Below are positions 13,096 to 25,996 of a stretch of DNA of 64,000 bases, in pieces (positions within the stretch are counted from its first letter, which is position 1; every line of letters starts with the position of its first letter). Location: NCBI GenBank assembly GCA_030429345.1, contig JAUIFJ010000001.1:248001-312000 (forward strand). Reading direction: 5' to 3'. The notes under the pieces were generated by a model. That model had not been told where the DNA came from, made no database searches, and was given only the letters and a program-made list of their open reading frames with translations. The position numbers and the translations under genes are program-made. Source of the stretch: a bacterium. GTDB lineage: Bacteria > CAIWAD01.

Positions 13096-13140
13096 GGCCG
13101 TGCAACGGCCGACCAATAACAGACGCATGTGAAACATGCG
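13096..13140 (+). repeat. Bipartite hairpin repeat, family 1, copy 1
   Basis: Arm B is the inverted repeat GGCCGTGCAACGGCC (13096-13110). Arm A is CGCATGTGAAACATGCG (13124-13140). Arm A has the same GT-GAA-AC apex as the other copies, but its outer stem differs by paired changes (GCAT/ATGC instead of GCAG/CTGC), so base pairing is kept. Confidence 0.7.
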
Positions 13141-17882: not shown

Positions 17883-18680
17883 TCAGTCGTCGTGATCCGC
17901 TTCCCGGATCGTGGTCCGGCTGTGTGCGCCGCCGGCGCTCAGGTCCAGCACCAGCCGGAAGCTGCCGATCTTCGCCGAGATGGCCAGGGCCCGCTGGTCG
18001 TGGCGATCCACATGGGCGCTGAAGGACATGCGGCCCTTCTTTCCCTCCGTGCCCTCCAGGCGGTAGCGAAAGACCTGTCGCCGGGCTCCGGGCATGTCCG
18101 AGCTGCGGAAATAGTTGCTGCGTCCGAAGCAGGCATGGATGTCCGCGTTGTCCAGGATGCTGAATCCGGCCAACGAATCGGCCGGGACTTCGCAGCGAAT
18201 GACGCGCTCGCCCAGGTCCAGGTCGGTGATCCGGCTGGTGAAGGAGCGCAGCAGCATCTCGATGCGTTCGTCCCCCAGGACCTCTGAAAAGCGCCGGTCA
18301 AGACTCAGGCTGGAGAGCCTCTCGTCGCGGAAGCGCAGTTCCAGGGAAACCGGATGTTCCAGGAAGGACGGTTGCCGCTGCCATCGATAGATCCAGCGCT
18401 GTTCCATGCCTACGCTGTCCAGCACGCTGGGCGCCCGGCCATTGGCAATGGTCTCGATGTCCTCCAGGGTCAACAGGGGATCCAGGAATTCCAGCACCGG
18501 GCCACGCTCTTCCGTGGCCGGGTGGAACTGGAAGTGCTTGTCGAACTTCAGAAAGTGCCCCCGCGACTGAAGCAGGCGAAAGGCCGTACCGATCATGCAG
18601 CCGCTGAGCAGAAGCAGCAGCAGCAGGCTCAGCGGAGTGGGCAGCGGCCAGGCCGGAAAGGGGCGTCGGTTGCTTTTCAT
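17883..18680 (-). CDS. Putative lipoprotein of unknown function
   Basis: A 265-residue protein with a lipoprotein signal: a positively charged start (MKSNRR), a leucine-rich core and the lipobox LSGC, giving an expected lipid-modified Cys28. The mature part has alternating beta-type segments and no motif I recognise. It is a single-gene unit with its own terminator, divergent from the helicase-associated gene at 18979. Likely periplasmic, membrane-anchored. Function unknown. Confidence 0.7.
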   Translation of the reverse strand: MKSNRRPFPAWPLPTPLSLLLLLLLSGCMIGTAFRLLQSRGHFLKFDKHFQFHPATEERGPVLEFLDPLLTLEDIETIANGRAPSVLDSVGMEQRWIYRWQRQPSFLEHPVSLELRFRDERLSSLSLDRRFSEVLGDERIEMLLRSFTSRITDLDLGERVIRCEVPADSLAGFSILDNADIHACFGRSNYFRSSDMPGARRQVFRYRLEGTEGKKGRMSFSAHVDRHDQRALAISAKIGSFRLVLDLSAGGAHSRTTIREADHDD

Positions 18681-18978
18681 TGGGCGAATCGGTACTCTGA
18701 TCGGCCCCGTAACGGATCCATACCATACAAATGGTCAGGGACGGATGATCGGGGCCATTGTTCCTTTATAGGCAGGATTTTCGTGCATCGCTCCCGTTTC
18801 TTGTGTTCCCCGGGCGGCCTATCGGCCGGTGCAGACACTCTGCGGATTCCACGGGAAGAGCGGCCAATGTACAGCAATCCCGTCGCCGACCCACTCCCCT
18901 CCCACACTCCCTTGCCGTCACCCGCGGAACCCCTGCACGCGTTTTCCGCGAAGCGGCCCACTAGCGAGATGCGCGCCC

Positions 18979-21168
18979 ATGTCCACTGAGTCCCTTTCGC
19001 CCCGCATGACCCGATCCCTGAAACATCTGGCCAGCTTCATGGAAAGCTCCGTCGAGCACGTGGAAGTGTTGTACTTCCTGAGTGCCGAAGGGGGGGAAGT
19101 GCCCCGGGCGGAAGTGCTGGAAGAACTGGAGAAGATCGGCCTGCAGAACGGCGAGGAGATCCTGGAGAGCCTGCGCGGCGCGGGGCTCGTGCGCAATCGC
19201 CGCTGCCCCAACGGGGACTCGGTCGTGCCCATTCTTGCCCTGGCGCCGGACCTGGAGCAGCTGCTGCGCCTGCCGGCCTTCTATCGCAGCCGCCTGCGCT
19301 ATCATCTGCAGGACCACCGCGAAGAGCACCTGGCTCAAATGGCGGACAACTTCTACGCGGCCTCCACCCCCTTTTCCGACGCGGACCGGCCGGTGCTGCA
19401 GCTGGCGCGCTTCAAGCACCTGCTCAAGGACTCGGAGCTTTTCCGCGCCGCCGTCGAAGAGCACTTCGACATGCCGCAGCGCGTGCTGCTCAAGGTGCTG
19501 GCCATGAACTCCAAGGGACTGACTCTGAAGGAGCTTCGCCGCCACCTGGGCTTTTTCGGTCATGGCATGGGCTATGACGACCTGAAGGCCAACCTGGCCC
19601 ACATCTACCGAAGCAGCGGCCTCGTCTTCTCGACGGGGGGCGAGAACCTGACGCAGCGCGACCAGTATTACGCCATCGATTCGCGGGTCCGCCTGGTGCA
19701 GGACGCGCACGAGATGTTGCGCACCAATTTCGGCCTTACCGCGCCGCCCCGGCAGATCTACCCCGAATTCAGCGGCGAGCTGAACCCGGAAAGCTGGAAA
19801 GTGGTCCACGACCCGCTGATGCTGTTCCACAACGTGCAGGCGCTGCTTGTATACGTGATCAGCCACCGTGTGACACGCATCCAGAAGGGCGGCATCCACA
19901 AGGGCGAGGCGCGCCGCATCAACGCCCGGCTGCTGCCGCCGCAGGAGGACAGCACCCTGCTCAACGTGCTCGTCGACTTCCTGCAGGATGCCGGCGTGCT
20001 CAAGCTCAACAACCGTGTCTGGGCCGTGGATGTCAGCAAGGCGGCGGCGCTCTTCCGCGACGCGGGCGACACGATCTGCCGTTTCTTCCTCTTCTACTTC
20101 GACGCCGATCCCCTCCAGCCGGCCACGTGGATCACGCGTTTCCGCGCCTCCGAATCCGGCCGGACCCTGGACGCCGTGCGCGCTCTCTGGGTGATGAACC
20201 ACCTGAGCGCGCGGGCCTGGATCACGACGGAGGATGTGGCCTGGCTCTACATCCAGTCCGAGGGCGGAGGAGGCGAGGCCCGCCTGGCGACGGTGGAGGG
20301 CTTCATCCGGCAGCTGGTCACGCACCCGCTGCACTGGCTGGGCCTGGTCGATGTATCACGGCTTCCCGAGGACGGCGGCATCATGTTCCGGCTCAGCGAT
20401 CGCGGCCGGGCCCTGCTGCTGGAGGGCAAGCTGCCGCAGGACCTGGACACCGTCTTCCGGGTGGAGGAGAAGCTGATCGTCCAGTCCAACCTGGAGGTCT
20501 TCACCCCCGTGAACTATCCTCCGGAGGGCGTGATGTTCCTGGCCCGCTTCGCCGATTTCGAGAAGGGCCGCTTCCGCATCAGCAACCAGTCGCTCTCCCG
20601 CGGCTTCGACAGCGGATTGAACATGGAGCAGATCGTCGGCTTCCTCGAGAAGGCCTCCAGCAGCGAGATCCCGCAGAACGTGCGCTACATGCTCGCCGAC
20701 GCCTCCGCGCGTCACGGCCACATCCTGGTCGATCCCCAGCTGCGCGCGGTCAAGTGCGAGGATCACATCCTGCAGAAGGAGCTGAGCCTGGTTCCGGCGC
20801 TGAAGAAGTTCTGGCTGGCCGGATTCCGTGATACAATCCTGCTGATGGCCGCCGGCGTCAATTCGGAGCGCGTGGTCGAGGAGCTGCGGAGGCTGGGCTA
20901 CATGCCGCGCATCCGCTGGGAAAGCGTGATCACCCGCGACGACAGCCGCATCGACCTGAGCGAACAGGAGCTGAAGGGCCTGCTGGCCCTGATCCGCGCC
21001 TTCGAGCTCTCCGACCGTGTCGACGACCGGCTGAGCGCCTTTCTGCTGGATGTAGACGGAGACCTGAGCCCGGAGCGCCGGGAACTGAAGGACGCGATTC
21101 CCCAGCGCGAGCTGGAGAAGAGCTACGAGGAACTGGAAGACCTGAACCGAAGCCTGCAGCATTTCTAG
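18979..21168 (+). CDS. XPB/Ssl2-type helicase-associated domain protein without a helicase core
   Basis: A 729-residue protein starting at MSTESLSPRM; an upstream in-frame start would add 50 low-complexity residues. The N-terminal two-thirds look like arrays of winged-helix-type segments. Residues ~490-620 match the Helicase_C_3 (XPB/Ssl2 N-terminal-like) domain: IVQSNLEVFTP, then FADFEKGRFRISNQSLSRGF, EIPQNVRYMLADASARHGHI and a CEDHILQKEL segment. In actinobacteria and others such proteins stand beside an XPB helicase. Here there are no helicase motifs and no XPB gene nearby. A DNA-repair or transcription-coupled role is inference only. It ends 30 bp before add. Confidence 0.75.
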   Translation: MSTESLSPRMTRSLKHLASFMESSVEHVEVLYFLSAEGGEVPRAEVLEELEKIGLQNGEEILESLRGAGLVRNRRCPNGDSVVPILALAPDLEQLLRLPAFYRSRLRYHLQDHREEHLAQMADNFYAASTPFSDADRPVLQLARFKHLLKDSELFRAAVEEHFDMPQRVLLKVLAMNSKGLTLKELRRHLGFFGHGMGYDDLKANLAHIYRSSGLVFSTGGENLTQRDQYYAIDSRVRLVQDAHEMLRTNFGLTAPPRQIYPEFSGELNPESWKVVHDPLMLFHNVQALLVYVISHRVTRIQKGGIHKGEARRINARLLPPQEDSTLLNVLVDFLQDAGVLKLNNRVWAVDVSKAAALFRDAGDTICRFFLFYFDADPLQPATWITRFRASESGRTLDAVRALWVMNHLSARAWITTEDVAWLYIQSEGGGGEARLATVEGFIRQLVTHPLHWLGLVDVSRLPEDGGIMFRLSDRGRALLLEGKLPQDLDTVFRVEEKLIVQSNLEVFTPVNYPPEGVMFLARFADFEKGRFRISNQSLSRGFDSGLNMEQIVGFLEKASSSEIPQNVRYMLADASARHGHILVDPQLRAVKCEDHILQKELSLVPALKKFWLAGFRDTILLMAAGVNSERVVEELRRLGYMPRIRWESVITRDDSRIDLSEQELKGLLALIRAFELSDRVDDRLSAFLLDVDGDLSPERRELKDAIPQRELEKSYEELEDLNRSLQHF

Positions 21169-21198: not shown

Positions 21199-22245
21199 AT
21201 GATTCCGACCCGGGACGAGATCCTGGCCTTTCCGAAAACCGACCTGCATGTGCACCTGGACGGTTCGATCCGCCTGGCGACCATGATCGACCTGGCGCGC
21301 GAGCGTTCCGTCGAGCTGCCGTCCATGGACGAGGAGGAGCTCTTCGCCAAGCTGAGGCTCGGGGCGAACTTCGAGAACCTCGTCGACTACCTGAGCGTGT
21401 TCCAGCACACTCTCAGCGTGATGCAGGACGAGGAGGCCCTGGAGCGCACGGCCTACGAGCTGGCGGAGGACAATGCCCGCGAGAACGTGCGCTGGCTGGA
21501 GGTGCGCTACAGTCCGGTGCTGCATACGGAGCAGGGCCTGGCCCTGCCCCAGGTCATGGACGCCGTGCTACGCGGCCTGCGTCGCGCCGAGCGGGATTTC
21601 GCGATCCGTTGCGGCGTGATCGTCTGCGGCATCCGCAACATCAATCCCGAAACCAGCCTGCGGCTGGCGGAAACGGCGGTGGCCTACAAGAACCAGGGCG
21701 TTGTCGGATTCGACCTGGCGGGCGCGGAGGACAACTTCCCGGCCAAGGACCACCGCGAAGCCTTCTACCTGATCCGCAACAACAACATCAACTGCACCGT
21801 ACACGCCGGCGAGGCGCATGGGCCGGAAAGCATCCACCAGGCCCTGCACTACCTGAGCGCCTATCGCATTGGACACGCCACGCGCCTGAAGGAGGACGGC
21901 GACCTGCTGAACTTCATGAACGATCGCCGCATTCCCATCGAGGCTTGTCCTACAAGCAATGTCCAGACACGCGTCTGCTCGTCGCTGCGCGGCCATCCGG
22001 TCAAGTTCTATCTGGACATGGGCCTGCGTGTGACCATCAATACCGACAACCGCCTGATCAGTCACACGACGGTTACCGACGAGCTCTACCAGGTGGCGAA
22101 GACCTTCGGGCTCAACCGGGAAGAAGTGCTCAAACTGGTGACGAACGGCTTCAAGAGCGCCTTCCTGCCTTTCCGCGAGAAACGCGCCCTGATTAACCAG
22201 GTTCTGACCGAAGTTGGTTATGGTGGCACCCTGATCGGCTACTAG
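21199..22245 (+). CDS. add: Adenosine deaminase
   Basis: A 348-residue zinc enzyme that turns adenosine or deoxyadenosine into inosine. Zinc ligands are in TDLHVHLDGS (His17, His19 from this start), HAGEAHGPES supplies the catalytic Glu, and GHATRL and INTDNRLIS follow. NTDNRLxS rather than NTDDP is the variant seen in actinobacterial-type ADA. I chose the ATG with a GGGGGA ribosome binding site; an ATG 30 bp upstream, directly abutting the previous stop, is also possible. It is probably co-transcribed with the helicase-associated gene. Confidence 0.93.
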   Translation: MIPTRDEILAFPKTDLHVHLDGSIRLATMIDLARERSVELPSMDEEELFAKLRLGANFENLVDYLSVFQHTLSVMQDEEALERTAYELAEDNARENVRWLEVRYSPVLHTEQGLALPQVMDAVLRGLRRAERDFAIRCGVIVCGIRNINPETSLRLAETAVAYKNQGVVGFDLAGAEDNFPAKDHREAFYLIRNNNINCTVHAGEAHGPESIHQALHYLSAYRIGHATRLKEDGDLLNFMNDRRIPIEACPTSNVQTRVCSSLRGHPVKFYLDMGLRVTINTDNRLISHTTVTDELYQVAKTFGLNREEVLKLVTNGFKSAFLPFREKRALINQVLTEVGYGGTLIGY

Positions 22246-22320: not shown

Positions 22321-25300
22321 ATGAAGAGCCTTGTCCTGCTGCTTGCGCTGATCAGCGCCGGCAGCGCCTTCGCCCAGCAGGCGGAGCACCTTGTGATCAG
22401 CGAGGTGCGCTACTACGAGACCTCCGGCGTCAACGAGGAGTTCGTCGAGATCTACAACCCGGCCAATTTCCCGGTCGAACTCAACGGCTACCGCATCCAG
22501 TACAAGTCCTCCGGGGGCGTCAACTGGTCGGACAAGGCCAGTTTCACGGCCAACCATGTGATCCAGGGAAAGGGCTTCATGCTCTTCGGCGGATCGGCGA
22601 CCAGTGTGACACCGGACATTTCGAGCGCCGTCTCGGTCGGACTGGGCAACAGCGGCGGTCATGTGCGCCTCCTGGACGCGGGCGACGAGGAGATCGACCG
22701 CGTGGGCTGGGGAGCGGCGGACAGCCCGGAGGGCACGGCCCTGGGCAGCCATCCCCGCGGCGGCAGCTTCGAGCGCAAGGCCTTCGAGAACAGCACCGCT
22801 GCCAGCATGGAAAGCGGTGGGGCGGACGAGCTGGAAGGCAACAGCTGGGACTCGGACGACAACAGCAGCGATTTTGTCGCACATGACGGCCTGTCGACGG
22901 CCAATCCGCAGAACAGCAGCAGCCCCATCGAGCCGGATGTGCCCCTGGTGGACGGCAGCGGCACGGTGACCGTCGACCCGACGACGATCATGGCCCCCGG
23001 GCCGGAGGAGCTCGAGTTCACTTTCGAGGCGGGTGATACACTGCTGACCCGCGTGCAGATCGAACTGCCCGAGGGGTGGACCTACACCGGCTACGACCAT
23101 GGCGACGGGGCCTTCGACGAAGTGGTCGTCGACGCCGACGGTTCGCTGATCACGATTACGGAAGCGTCCCTCGAAGGGGCCGTGACGGGGACCTTCACCC
23201 TGGAGGGCCTGATGGTGCCCACGGCCAGCGGCATCTTCCAGATCACGGTGCGCACGGCGACGGAGGACGGCACGCTGGCCATCATCCAGGGTCCGCCGAC
23301 CGTGCAGGTCATCGGCGATCCCATGCCGATGAGCGCCCTGCACGAGAACGACAACGACGGCATTCCCGACCTGCTGGGCAACATTGTTGTCGTACGCGGC
23401 GTGGTCACTCTGGCCGACGAGCTGGGCATTGCCGCCTACCTGCAGGACGAGACCGGCGGCATCGTGGCCTATGACGCGGCCTTTGCAGAGAGCGTAGACA
23501 TCGGCGACGATGTGACGGTGGTCGGCACCCTCGTGCATTTCAACGGCCTGGCCGAGCTGACTCCGGCGACCATCGTCGAGACGCACGCGACGGGCGTGGA
23601 GGTCGATCCCGAGGTGGTGACCTGCTCCGACATCGCCGACCAGGGCGCTGGTGGAGAGCCCTGGGAGGGGATGCTTGTGCGCCTGAACGGAATCACCGTG
23701 GAGGGCGCCGGCGTCTGGGCGGGGAACACGAACTACACGATCGCCGACGGCACCGGCAGCACGACCCTGCGCGTCGACTCCGACTGCGACCTGGTCGGCC
23801 TGCCGATTCCGGGCGACGCCTTCGACGTGATCGTCAATGTGGCCCAGTACGACTTCAGCGCTCCGCACACCAGCGGCTACCAGGTCCTGCCGCGTTTCGC
23901 TTCGGATGTGATCCAGTCCGGCGGTCCGACCATCACCGGCGGCCCCTGGGAATCCGAACGCACCCGGACCAGTCTGCGCCTGAGCTGGACCACCAGCACG
24001 GCGAGCAACACGATCGTCACCTGGGGCGCGACCGATGCCCACGAGATCGACAGTGTCGCAGTCTTCGAATCGGTGACGGATCACGGCTATGTGATTGACG
24101 GCCTTGAGCCGGGCAGCATCTACCACGTGCGCTGCGGCAGCGAGGATGCCAACGGCGCCAGCTTCACCAGCGACTTCCTGGTGGCGACCGTTTCGCCTGC
24201 CACCAGTCCCGGCACCATCGAGGTCTTCTTCACGCAGGGCGTGGAGACCGACCTGGCCACCGAGGGCAACGAGGCCAACGGCGATCACGATGTGGTACAG
24301 GAAGTGCTCGACCTGATCGACGGCGCCGAAAGCAGCCTGGATTGCGCCATCTATTCGCTGAACATCTTCGATATTGCCGACGCGATCATCGATGCCCACG
24401 ACCGCGGCGTGGCCGTGCGCTTCATCTATGACGCGGATCACGACCAGGGCGAGGTGGCACAGATCGCCAATGCCGGCATCACGGTCATTGACAACAGCTT
24501 CGGCTCGAACGGCCTGCAGGGCATTCAGCACAACAAGTTCTTCATTGTCGACGCCGCCGACGCGGACCCCTCCAACGACAAGGTCTGGACCGGCAGTCTC
24601 AACCTGCTCGACGCCCCGGGCAGCGTCGGCATTCACGCCAAGCAGAACAGCATCCTGATCGCCGACCAGGCCCTGGCGCGGGCGTATACGCTCGAATTCA
24701 ACGAGATGTGGGGTTCTGACGGCATGAACCCCAGCGCTCCCAACTCGCGCTTCGGCGAGTTCAAGACCGACAACACGCCGCATCATTTCATCGTCGGCGG
24801 CCGCCCTGTGGATCTGTGGTTCAGCAAGGGCGACTTCGTCAGCCAGCAGATGCGCAACCTGATCGACACCGCCGACGAGAGCGTCTACTTCGGCATCCTG
24901 GCCTTCACCCTGAACGATGTCAACTACAGCATGCGCGACCGCTTCGAGGACGACGATGTCGCCGTGCGCGGCGTCTTCGACGACGAGGGCGACCAGTTCA
25001 GCGAGTTCAGCGACATGCAGGGCTGGGGCGCGGACATCCACACGGATGCCGGCTCGGGCATCCTGCATCACAAGTACCTGCTGGTGGACGCCGACTATCC
25101 CGAGTACGGACCGGCCGTCTGGACGGGCTCCTTCAATTTCAGCAGCAGCGCCAACGAGCGCAACGACGAGAACGTCGTCGTGATCCACGACGCCGCCATT
25201 GCCAACCAGTACCTGCAGGAGTTCGCCGAGATCTATCACAATGCCGGCGGCACGCACCAGTTCATGGTCAGCGACGTGGACGAGAACACGGCCACGCCGG

Positions 25301-25566
25301 AAAGCTTCCGCATTACGGGCAACTGGCCCAATCCCTTCAATCCCGCGACGACCCTGGCCTTCGAGCTGCCGGTCGAGCAGGCCCTGGAGCTGAGCGTCTA
25401 CAACCTGCAGGGCCGCCGCGTGATGCAGCAGTCCCTGGGGCAGCTGGCCGCGGGGCAGCATCAGCTGGCGCTGGACCTGTCGGCCCAGGCCAGCGGAGTC
25501 TACTTCGTCCGCCTCGCCGGCGAACAGCTCGGCACCGCCAGCCGCAAGGTGCTGCTGGTCAAGTAG
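22321..25566 (+). CDS. Secreted phospholipase D-like nuclease with lamin-tail, OB-fold and FnIII domains
   Basis: A 1081-residue secreted protein. A signal peptide (residues 1-19, cut near AFA-QQ) is followed by a lamin-tail domain (20-170: LVISEVRYYETSG, EFVEIYNPANFPVEL), a cohesin-like beta domain, an OB-fold segment of the kind found in extracellular nucleases (~330-520), a fibronectin type III domain (~540-620), and two PLD domains. The HKD motifs are IQHNKFFIVD (His737) and LHHKYLLVD (His916), both followed by WTGSLN or WTGSFN. The FlgD-like C-terminal sorting domain (NPFNPATTLAF) ends the protein. It probably hydrolyses phosphodiester bonds of extracellular DNA or lipid. A strong terminator follows. 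Confidence 0.9.
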   Translation: MKSLVLLLALISAGSAFAQQAEHLVISEVRYYETSGVNEEFVEIYNPANFPVELNGYRIQYKSSGGVNWSDKASFTANHVIQGKGFMLFGGSATSVTPDISSAVSVGLGNSGGHVRLLDAGDEEIDRVGWGAADSPEGTALGSHPRGGSFERKAFENSTAASMESGGADELEGNSWDSDDNSSDFVAHDGLSTANPQNSSSPIEPDVPLVDGSGTVTVDPTTIMAPGPEELEFTFEAGDTLLTRVQIELPEGWTYTGYDHGDGAFDEVVVDADGSLITITEASLEGAVTGTFTLEGLMVPTASGIFQITVRTATEDGTLAIIQGPPTVQVIGDPMPMSALHENDNDGIPDLLGNIVVVRGVVTLADELGIAAYLQDETGGIVAYDAAFAESVDIGDDVTVVGTLVHFNGLAELTPATIVETHATGVEVDPEVVTCSDIADQGAGGEPWEGMLVRLNGITVEGAGVWAGNTNYTIADGTGSTTLRVDSDCDLVGLPIPGDAFDVIVNVAQYDFSAPHTSGYQVLPRFASDVIQSGGPTITGGPWESERTRTSLRLSWTTSTASNTIVTWGATDAHEIDSVAVFESVTDHGYVIDGLEPGSIYHVRCGSEDANGASFTSDFLVATVSPATSPGTIEVFFTQGVETDLATEGNEANGDHDVVQEVLDLIDGAESSLDCAIYSLNIFDIADAIIDAHDRGVAVRFIYDADHDQGEVAQIANAGITVIDNSFGSNGLQGIQHNKFFIVDAADADPSNDKVWTGSLNLLDAPGSVGIHAKQNSILIADQALARAYTLEFNEMWGSDGMNPSAPNSRFGEFKTDNTPHHFIVGGRPVDLWFSKGDFVSQQMRNLIDTADESVYFGILAFTLNDVNYSMRDRFEDDDVAVRGVFDDEGDQFSEFSDMQGWGADIHTDAGSGILHHKYLLVDADYPEYGPAVWTGSFNFSSSANERNDENVVVIHDAAIANQYLQEFAEIYHNAGGTHQFMVSDVDENTATPESFRITGNWPNPFNPATTLAFELPVEQALELSVYNLQGRRVMQQSLGQLAAGQHQLALDLSAQASGVYFVRLAGEQLGTASRKVLLVK

Positions 25567-25693: not shown

Positions 25694-25740
25694 CTGCAGG
25701 TGAAACCTGCAGGTAACTTTGGTCGGCCGTTGCACGGCCG
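25694..25740 (-). repeat. Bipartite hairpin repeat, family 1, copy 2
   Basis: Arm A CTGCAGGTGAAACCTGCAG (25694-25712) and arm B GGCCGTTGCACGGCC (25725-25739). The arm order is reversed relative to copies 4 and 5, so the whole unit is inverted. Confidence 0.75.
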
Positions 25741-25888
25741 GTTGATTTGCGGCTCGATTGTTTCATCGAAGACCAGGCACGGCCTCCTGCCCGATACTTT
25801 GCGGTGATCGCTGTACCTGGTTTGTACTCCAAATAGCGGCAGGGCCCCTGCAGCCGGGCAAGCGCCGAGGAATCCTGCTGCTATCATT

Positions 25889-25908
25889 GGTCGGCCGTTG
25901 CACGGCCA
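25889..25908 (-). repeat. Bipartite hairpin repeat, family 1, copy 3 (arm B only)
   Basis: Arm B GGCCGTTGCACGGCC (25893-25907), preceded by TTGGTC as in copy 2. Arm A is missing or degenerate. Confidence 0.65.
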
Positions 25909-25950
25909 TGGATGGACGTACCACAGGACGGGGTTCTCATCCCATAAACC

Positions 25951-25996
25951 GGCCGTGCAACGGCCGACCAACCCCAGCTGCAGGTTTCACCTGCAG
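25951..25996 (+). repeat. Bipartite hairpin repeat, family 1, copy 4
   Basis: Arm B GGCCGTGCAACGGCC (25951-25965) followed by arm A CTGCAGGTTTCACCTGCAG (25978-25996). It is the mirror of copy 2. Confidence 0.75.

Follow-up and report, generated by a model that had tools for sequence, protein, structure and literature searches.

Genes and features at the locus

The window analysed here is a 64,000-nucleotide stretch of bacterial DNA (lineage CAIWAD01; assembly GCA_030429345.1, contig JAUIFJ010000001.1, positions 248,001 to 312,000), and positions below are those of the window unless a contig or locus is named. On its + strand, the frame between 18979 and 21168 is open throughout and encodes a protein of 729 aa, called P0001 hereafter. 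An alternative in-frame GTG start at 18829 would lengthen it, but the alignment of its relatives begins near Met1/Met10. The features of P0001 and of its two closest neighbours are as follows (NTD, N-terminal domain; VIA and Foldseek are structure comparisons).

17883..18680, − strand: divergent orphan gene upstream of P0001, with homologues beside P0001 relatives
18979..21168 (stop included), + strand: P0001, helicase-less protein with an XPB-NTD/p52-clutch domain (translation, Pfam)
19399..20103, + strand: aa 141-375, predicted winged-helix region aligning with the N-terminal half of p52 (low-confidence model)
20170..20442, + strand: aa 398-488, predicted winged helix immediately N-terminal to the clutch (aa 385-656 model)
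20461..20718, + strand: aa 495-580, XPB-NTD/p52-clutch fold, core of Helicase_C_3 (Pfam, VIA, Foldseek)
20473-20811, + strand: aa 499-611, full span of the Pfam Helicase_C_3 match
20719..20916, + strand: aa 581-646, homologue of the XPB stretch next to the NTD, where the DRD-like domain starts (VIA, profile-profile)
20956..21165, + strand: aa 660-729, helical tail at the C-terminus (whole-length model, helix pLDDT 77-84)
21199..22245, + strand: adenosine-deaminase-family gene, 30 bases downstream of P0001 (Pfam A_deaminase, 7.3e-98)

A preliminary description of this DNA, made from its letters only, had reported a 729-residue protein with a C-terminal Helicase_C_3-like region, and helicase motifs neither in the protein nor in a neighbour. 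The domain is indeed there: Helicase_C_3 (PF13625), the sole Pfam family above its cut-off in P0001, matches with an E-value of 1.6e-17 and 64.2 bits for a cut-off of 34.2, which is far beyond chance. "C-terminal" is accurate in that the match lies in the C-terminal third of the protein, and inexact in that about 118 residues follow it; the tail (aa 660-729) gave no Pfam match. Despite its name, PF13625 corresponds to the N-terminal domain of XPB, and all 21 bacterial XPBs scanned carry it. Pfam found no helicase domain of the RecA motor type in P0001, and no nuclease family either. With the NCBIfam XPB model, P0001 scored 19.9 bits, for a cut-off of 610, through the N-terminal part of the model only. 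Nor did Pfam find a helicase domain in any of five neighbouring gene products (those scanned were topoisomerase I, DUF494, the orphan, the adenosine deaminase and a secreted PLD/lamin-tail protein).

The two genes flanking P0001 are conserved beside it. Of the 4 other genomes of the phylum, 3 (G004, G003 and G001) have the adenosine-deaminase gene next to their P0001 relative; in the fourth, G002, the contig stops less than 1 kb past the relative. The orphan, for which Pfam yielded no match, has a homologue adjoining the P0001 relative in 3 of the 4 as well (G003, G002 and G004). We consider both as conserved neighbours, and neither as a proven member of a P0001 system. Sequence conservation differs between the genes, at 72-77% identity for the deaminase and 32-46% for P0001 (relatives in loci L085, L086 and L087). 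Further downstream, 22321-25566 (+ strand) encodes the 1081-aa secreted protein, in which two PLD-like phosphodiesterase stretches are combined with a lamin-tail domain and a Por secretion tail; it may be a nuclease or lipase that the cell exports. The window also contains 4 copies, for 0.02 expected, of a palindromic intergenic repeat with the core CCGTGCAACGGCCGACC, at 25694-25996 and 13098-13114; three of them are clustered at 25721-25969, in both orientations. A reading of P0001 as part of a defence system was dropped, because neither a PADLOC match nor a phage relative was found.

XPB in the source genome and across bacteria

The preliminary description had presented P0001 as a protein "without XPB", and had proposed looking for an XPB gene in the genome. 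This label was wrong. Searching the source genome with PF13625 yielded P0001 and one stronger match, which is a complete XPB of 556 aa (C75:186863-188500, + strand; 868.1 bits with the curated NCBIfam XPB model), where PF13625 covers residues 8-135, beside the helicase domains. P0001, at C75:266979, lies on the same contig and strand, ~78 kb downstream of XPB. Near this XPB locus, downstream of a large secreted protein gene, we also observed three tandem-like copies of a 268-base unit (L004 16429-17195), 84-89% identical and with a spacing of 249-250. All 5 genomes of the phylum that were examined, source included, encode both an XPB and a P0001 homologue, located on different contigs in the other 4. 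The frame of P0001 is intact in the five genomes, with 46% identity and about 150 invariant columns. Among these relatives are an uncultured La Plata bin, a MAG labelled Acetofilamentum and a Candidatus Delongbacteria MAG. The scan of the contig collection reached phylum members only (3 loci), and distant relatives came from whole-genome searches.

Co-occurrence was measured in the 386 bacterial genomes of our relatives sampling. XPB is present in 48 of them, 47 with a score above the curated cut-off, and one (G038) with a gene split over two contigs, the larger piece being just under the cut-off. A first count, based on PF13625, gave a motor-less carrier of the domain, called partner hereafter, in 48 genomes, with 42 genomes having both, 6 XPB only and 6 the partner only. 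A sensitive profile restricted to the clutch (A8) shifted four of the six XPB-only genomes to the first class. So that the correction should not be one-sided, it was then applied to the whole set of 386 genomes, and detected a clutch-type domain in the same 54 genomes, 52 of which have a motor-less carrier. The final distribution is 46 genomes with both, 2 with XPB only, 6 with the partner only and 332 with neither (Fisher p 2e-50). Counted by families, it becomes 28, 2, 5 and 225 (p 3e-30), the total of 260 families being the highest family code seen.

The two genes are also recurrently adjacent. In 22 of the co-occurring genomes, belonging to 15 families, XPB and the partner are at most 2 kb apart and on the same strand (pairs taken from the PF13625-based count), while a crude estimate of the chance expectation for such pairs is roughly 0.02. 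The partner is upstream of XPB in 5 pairs and downstream in 17. In Tsukamurella, a "DNA repair helicase XPB" is found 3.5 kb downstream of the "helicase-associated domain-containing protein" WP_068740900.1. Within the neighbourhoods fetched around XPB and partner genes, no third gene was common to more than three families; the clusters that did reach three families comprised the two genes themselves (partner and XPB), antisense shadow frames, and a single FtsW-like cluster, present in three families, whose label comes from the reading of one sequence. A Bax1-type nuclease was looked for as a third conserved neighbour, and was not found in these neighbourhoods. Bax1 is the non-helicase partner of archaeal XPB (PMC13024598, PMC7672443), and is a nuclease that binds XPB by its thumb and second motor domain, whereas no nuclease family was found in P0001 by Pfam.

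None of the six partner-only genomes has an XPB with the N-terminal domain above the NCBIfam cut-off. In three of them (G101, G334 and G367), the only XPB-like helicase is a shorter one, of 455-511 aa, devoid of this domain, a type that is also present in many genomes without the partner. G239 is a similar case, with a p52-like protein and no XPB bearing the N-terminal domain. These six genomes are what one would expect if P0001 were a stand-alone regulator, binding DNA or RNA polymerase and reusing the XPB-NTD fold without any contact with XPB. Two further observations go in the same direction, the resemblance of its winged helices to MarR/BlaI-type repressors, and the fact that in this phylum the gene adjoins the adenosine deaminase rather than XPB. 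Yet the presence of the partner in 46 of the 48 XPB genomes, together with 22 same-strand pairs in both gene orders, is hard to explain without a functional link, and makes such a regulator unlikely. The preliminary description had left two options, a protein acting by itself or together with an XPB located elsewhere. The XPB of the source genome, the co-occurrence and the close pairs strongly favour the latter over the former.

To describe the partner family, 40 of at least 48 loci were aligned (alignment A3): the source, four phylum members and 35 others matching the first profile. Left out were G201 (incomplete frame), G101 (294-aa frame), and G329, G069, G340, G307, G143, G310 and G290 (no match, fragments, or region not fetched). 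All 40 proteins carry PF13625. A Pfam WYL domain, the sensor domain type of bacterial DNA-damage regulators, is found in 7 of the 40 (L081, L082, L051 and L069 among them), at the C-terminus in the four inspected. Two proteins (L077 3302-5416 and L078 3755-5929, from G267 and G131) have an apparent second clutch-type domain in tandem, with a second A8 match at model positions 39-149, so that a single chain might form a pseudo-dimer alone. Databases annotate the family as "helicase-associated domain-containing protein", with no function. The actinobacterial member cited above, WP_068740900.1, carries PF13625 and was reached through the profile of the relatives. Actinobacterial relatives are larger than P0001 (frames of 825-919 aa, for the three found by PF13625), and 2 of the 3 have a C-terminal WYL domain, which is absent in P0001. 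Rv0862c of M. tuberculosis is a putative member of this actinobacterial group. Rv0862c is listed among growth-attenuating genes as "function unknown" in PMC3656116.

Likeness to p52 and XPB in sequence, fold and descent

In human TFIIH, XPB is recruited via p52, whose clutch (residues 306-399) shares the fold of the XPB N-terminal domain and forms with it a pseudo-symmetric dimer, as reported in PMC6422496. A link to p52, or Tfb2, was absent from the preliminary description. It appeared in searches of 177,635 PDB sequences: the profile of the 40 motor-less proteins of A3 matched Chaetomium p52/Tfb2 (3.7e-8) nearly as well as XPB (2.7e-8), and with the clutch-only profile A8, XPB came up at 1.7e-12 and p52/Tfb2 as six distinct sequences between 1.3e-6 and 2.4e-6, the next match being at 0.34. 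The control was a profile of 21 bacterial XPB N-termini (A7), narrower than A8 and therefore less sensitive: it recovered XPB at 1.2e-20, and p52 was absent from its matches up to E 10. P0001 used as a single sequence gave chance matches only in the PDB. The Pfam Tfb2 model (PF03849), searched at E up to 1, matched 12 of the 40 relatives weakly (best 2.1e-4) and none of the 21 bacterial XPBs (p 0.005). Those of the matches that were displayed involve the clutch end of the model and are all below its 34.5-bit cut-off; P0001 itself gave no Tfb2 match.

Diagnostic residues were then compared. At the position of Tfb2 R380, 27 of the 40 partners have Arg/Lys as in p52, while 20 of the 21 XPBs have Pro; at R385, Arg/Lys is found in 26 of the 40, again as in p52, and Asn in 21 of the 21 XPBs; at Y399, 33 of the 40 have an aromatic residue, Phe or Trp. 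The interface itself is different. Tfb2 E342 (human E310) is essential for the p52-XPB contact in yeast and fly according to PMC9557730, and its position is occupied by Gln502 in P0001, and by Gln in 33 of the 40 relatives. The K346/R314 position is Glu506 in P0001, and Glu in 29 of the 40. The position of Tfb2 Tyr350 is Pro510. Outside the clutch, the profile of the N-terminal part of the 40 relatives found a BlaI-like chain at 9.1e-5, that is a generic winged helix, and did not find p52. On the other side, profile-profile comparison showed that the homology of the family to bacterial XPB continues past the clutch (151 columns, probability 99.7), up to the "LRRLGYMP"/"LIKIGFPV" motif.

The fold of P0001 was predicted with AlphaFold2. 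The whole-length model, built on four sequences, is of low confidence (pLDDT 56.4, pTM 0.32). Compared by Foldseek to 350,542 chains, its ranks 1 to 5 were TFIIH p52/Tfb2 chains (E 2.8e-3 to 1.5e-2), followed by XPB chains; these five rows cover 533-589 columns, none reaches 0.001, and their TM-scores are 0.10-0.12. One of them, 7o4i_2, bears the name TFB2 in a listing that also includes 7zs9, and 6nmi_D, 7egc_4 and 7lbm_Z were taken as p52 by chain and length. With VIA, p52-type chains were collinear with the whole model from aa 141 to 581, with an rmsd of 14-19 Å, which means that the domains match and their arrangement does not, the whole model not predicting domain arrangement. Within this region, aa 141-375 aligned with the N-terminal half of p52 (6tru_B) over 162 residues, at Z 7.1 and 17.0 Å, in this same model of pLDDT 56.4; single helix-turn-helix stretches also matched MarR-type repressors at Z 6.3-7.5.

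A second model, of aa 385-656, remains of low confidence as well (pLDDT 67.1, 70-86 in the clutch region). In VIA, its rows 1 to 22 are TFIIH XPB or p52 without exception, at Z 11.2-14.3, the first unrelated row being at 9.5. The XPB chain 7egb_6 aligned over 148 residues at 4.2 Å (Z 14.3), and the p52-numbered chains at Z 11.2-13.2, with 7nvv_2 as the best (85 residues, 1.7 Å, Z 13.2) and 6trs_A, a p52, at 88 residues, 2.6 Å and Z 11.5. Foldseek gave XPB at 3.0e-6 and chain 8ebu_D at 6.1e-5. Thus the XPB-like domain is present in the predicted fold, where its absence would have contradicted the preliminary description. Model residues ~14-104 resemble MarR-type and cohesin-kleisin winged helices (VIA, Z 8.2-9.5). 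The p52 rows stop at the clutch, whereas the VIA alignment to XPB extends to model residue 263, i.e. aa 647; by both VIA and profile-profile comparison, the stretch beyond the clutch, where p52 has its C-terminal p8/Tfb5-binding module, aligns with XPB.

Compared with eukaryotic p52 (Tfb2, GTF2H4), P0001 shares the clutch (HubA) domain in both fold and sequence, and may have its winged helices in the same order before the clutch, as far as a low-confidence model can tell, their sequence likeness being only generic. Both are tied to XPB, genomically in the case of the P0001 family. Unlike p52, P0001 is bacterial, is longer at both ends, was seen in no TFIIH context, has Gln and Glu at the E310/E342 and R314/K346 interface positions, and escapes the Pfam Tfb2 model. 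Where p52 has its p8-binding module, P0001 runs into an XPB-like next domain, which sets the partner family apart from p52. With XPB (ERCC3, Rad25), P0001 shares the N-terminal domain; it differs from it by its lack of RecA motor domains, by its other diagnostic residues, and by its separate place in the trees.

A tree was built from 65 domains, and one of its branches (support 100/98) united all 22 N-termini of XPB, 21 bacterial and one human. A second tree, from which four long-branch rows (G210, G268, G334 and G280 L067) were left out, gave 100/99 for this branch, apart from all partner domains. The motor-less proteins are therefore not recent copies of XPB. This bears on the idea that P0001 could be a decayed XPB, which would have lost its motor domains and have no present function. 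P0001 does share only the N-terminal part of XPB, but its frame is intact in five genomes, with 46% identity between the proteins, a deep separation divides the partner family from XPB, and winged helices are no part of XPB: decay is already contradicted, and we give it hardly any credit. As to p52, it was placed among the bacterial partners in the first tree, the clade of P0001 being on the same side of the deepest split as XPB, nearer to XPB than p52 is. The AU test rejected neither a group of XPB and p52 (p 0.43) nor a single group of all partners (p 0.45), and for this reason we claim no common descent of p52 and the partner family to the exclusion of XPB. We conclude in favour of likeness to p52, rather than orthology with it, and of a deep separation from XPB.

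Another explanation keeps P0001 in the XPB pathway, without a p52-like clamp: it could be a loader for a substrate or a lesion, or a decoy for the ligand of the XPB NTD, its p52-like domain order being then due to convergence, with winged helices fused to a copied XPB-NTD. It would account for a homology that passes the clutch into the next domain of XPB, which p52 lacks in the alignments seen, and for interface charges that differ from those of p52, and the trees leave unsettled a shared origin of p52 and the partner family apart from XPB. Against it, the XPB N-termini stand apart (100/99) from all 36 or 40 partner domains, which excludes recent copies, and similarity to p52 in sequence is found in the partner family and not in XPB, including at R380 (27/40) and Y399 (33/40). 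We hold this explanation to be improbable.

P0001 as a candidate adapter of bacterial XPB

P0001 is most likely an adapter, or activator, of XPB. We estimate at roughly 70% the probability that it is a dedicated partner of bacterial XPB, built like p52/Tfb2, with winged helices followed by a clutch of the XPB-NTD fold. Four observations lead to this reading: P0001 has the domain, with the corresponding fold; its genome encodes XPB; the two families co-occur, with recurrent adjacency; and the clutch is homologous in sequence to XPB as well as to p52. It has to accommodate two facts, that the XPB and P0001 genes are non-adjacent in this lineage, and that the key interface glutamate of p52 is a Gln; moreover, outside the clutch, the likeness to p52 comes from the predicted fold only.

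The mode of action proposed here is modelled on p52, which anchors XPB and raises its ATPase activity, as presented in PMC5980561. P0001 would bind XPB physically, its clutch-type domain pairing with the N-terminal domain of XPB as that of p52 does. For XPB, this pairing would mean a tether, a restraint on the second motor domain and a more active ATPase. The winged helices, for their part, may place the P0001-XPB pair on DNA, or on another partner. The setting would most likely be DNA repair or stalled or initiating transcription. In those 7 of the 40 relatives that have a WYL domain, this domain could sense a ligand or single-stranded DNA, two kinds of signal associated with the WYL domains of PafBC.

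More tentatively, and at somewhat less than even odds in our opinion, bacteria may hold a two-subunit ancestor or relative of the motor module of TFIIH, made of XPB and a p52-type adapter with a pseudo-symmetric clutch. According to a 2012 paper, no bacterial homologue of p52 had been found, and a 2026 review calls the function of XPB in archaea and bacteria "more elusive" (PMC13024598). In the open PMC literature, which is what our search covered, we found no description of a bacterial p52; one may be in print elsewhere, in a preprint or a subscription paper. If such a module exists, the XPB-p52 partnership would be older than eukaryotic TFIIH, or wider than it, and an XPB-p52 machine would be open to study in a simple bacterium. 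A p52-like identity would also rename a widespread uncharacterised family. Since the partner travels with XPB in at least 28 bacterial families, it is a candidate regulator for bacterial XPB, whose role becomes testable by pull-down and ATPase assays, with a bearing on the origin of TFIIH.
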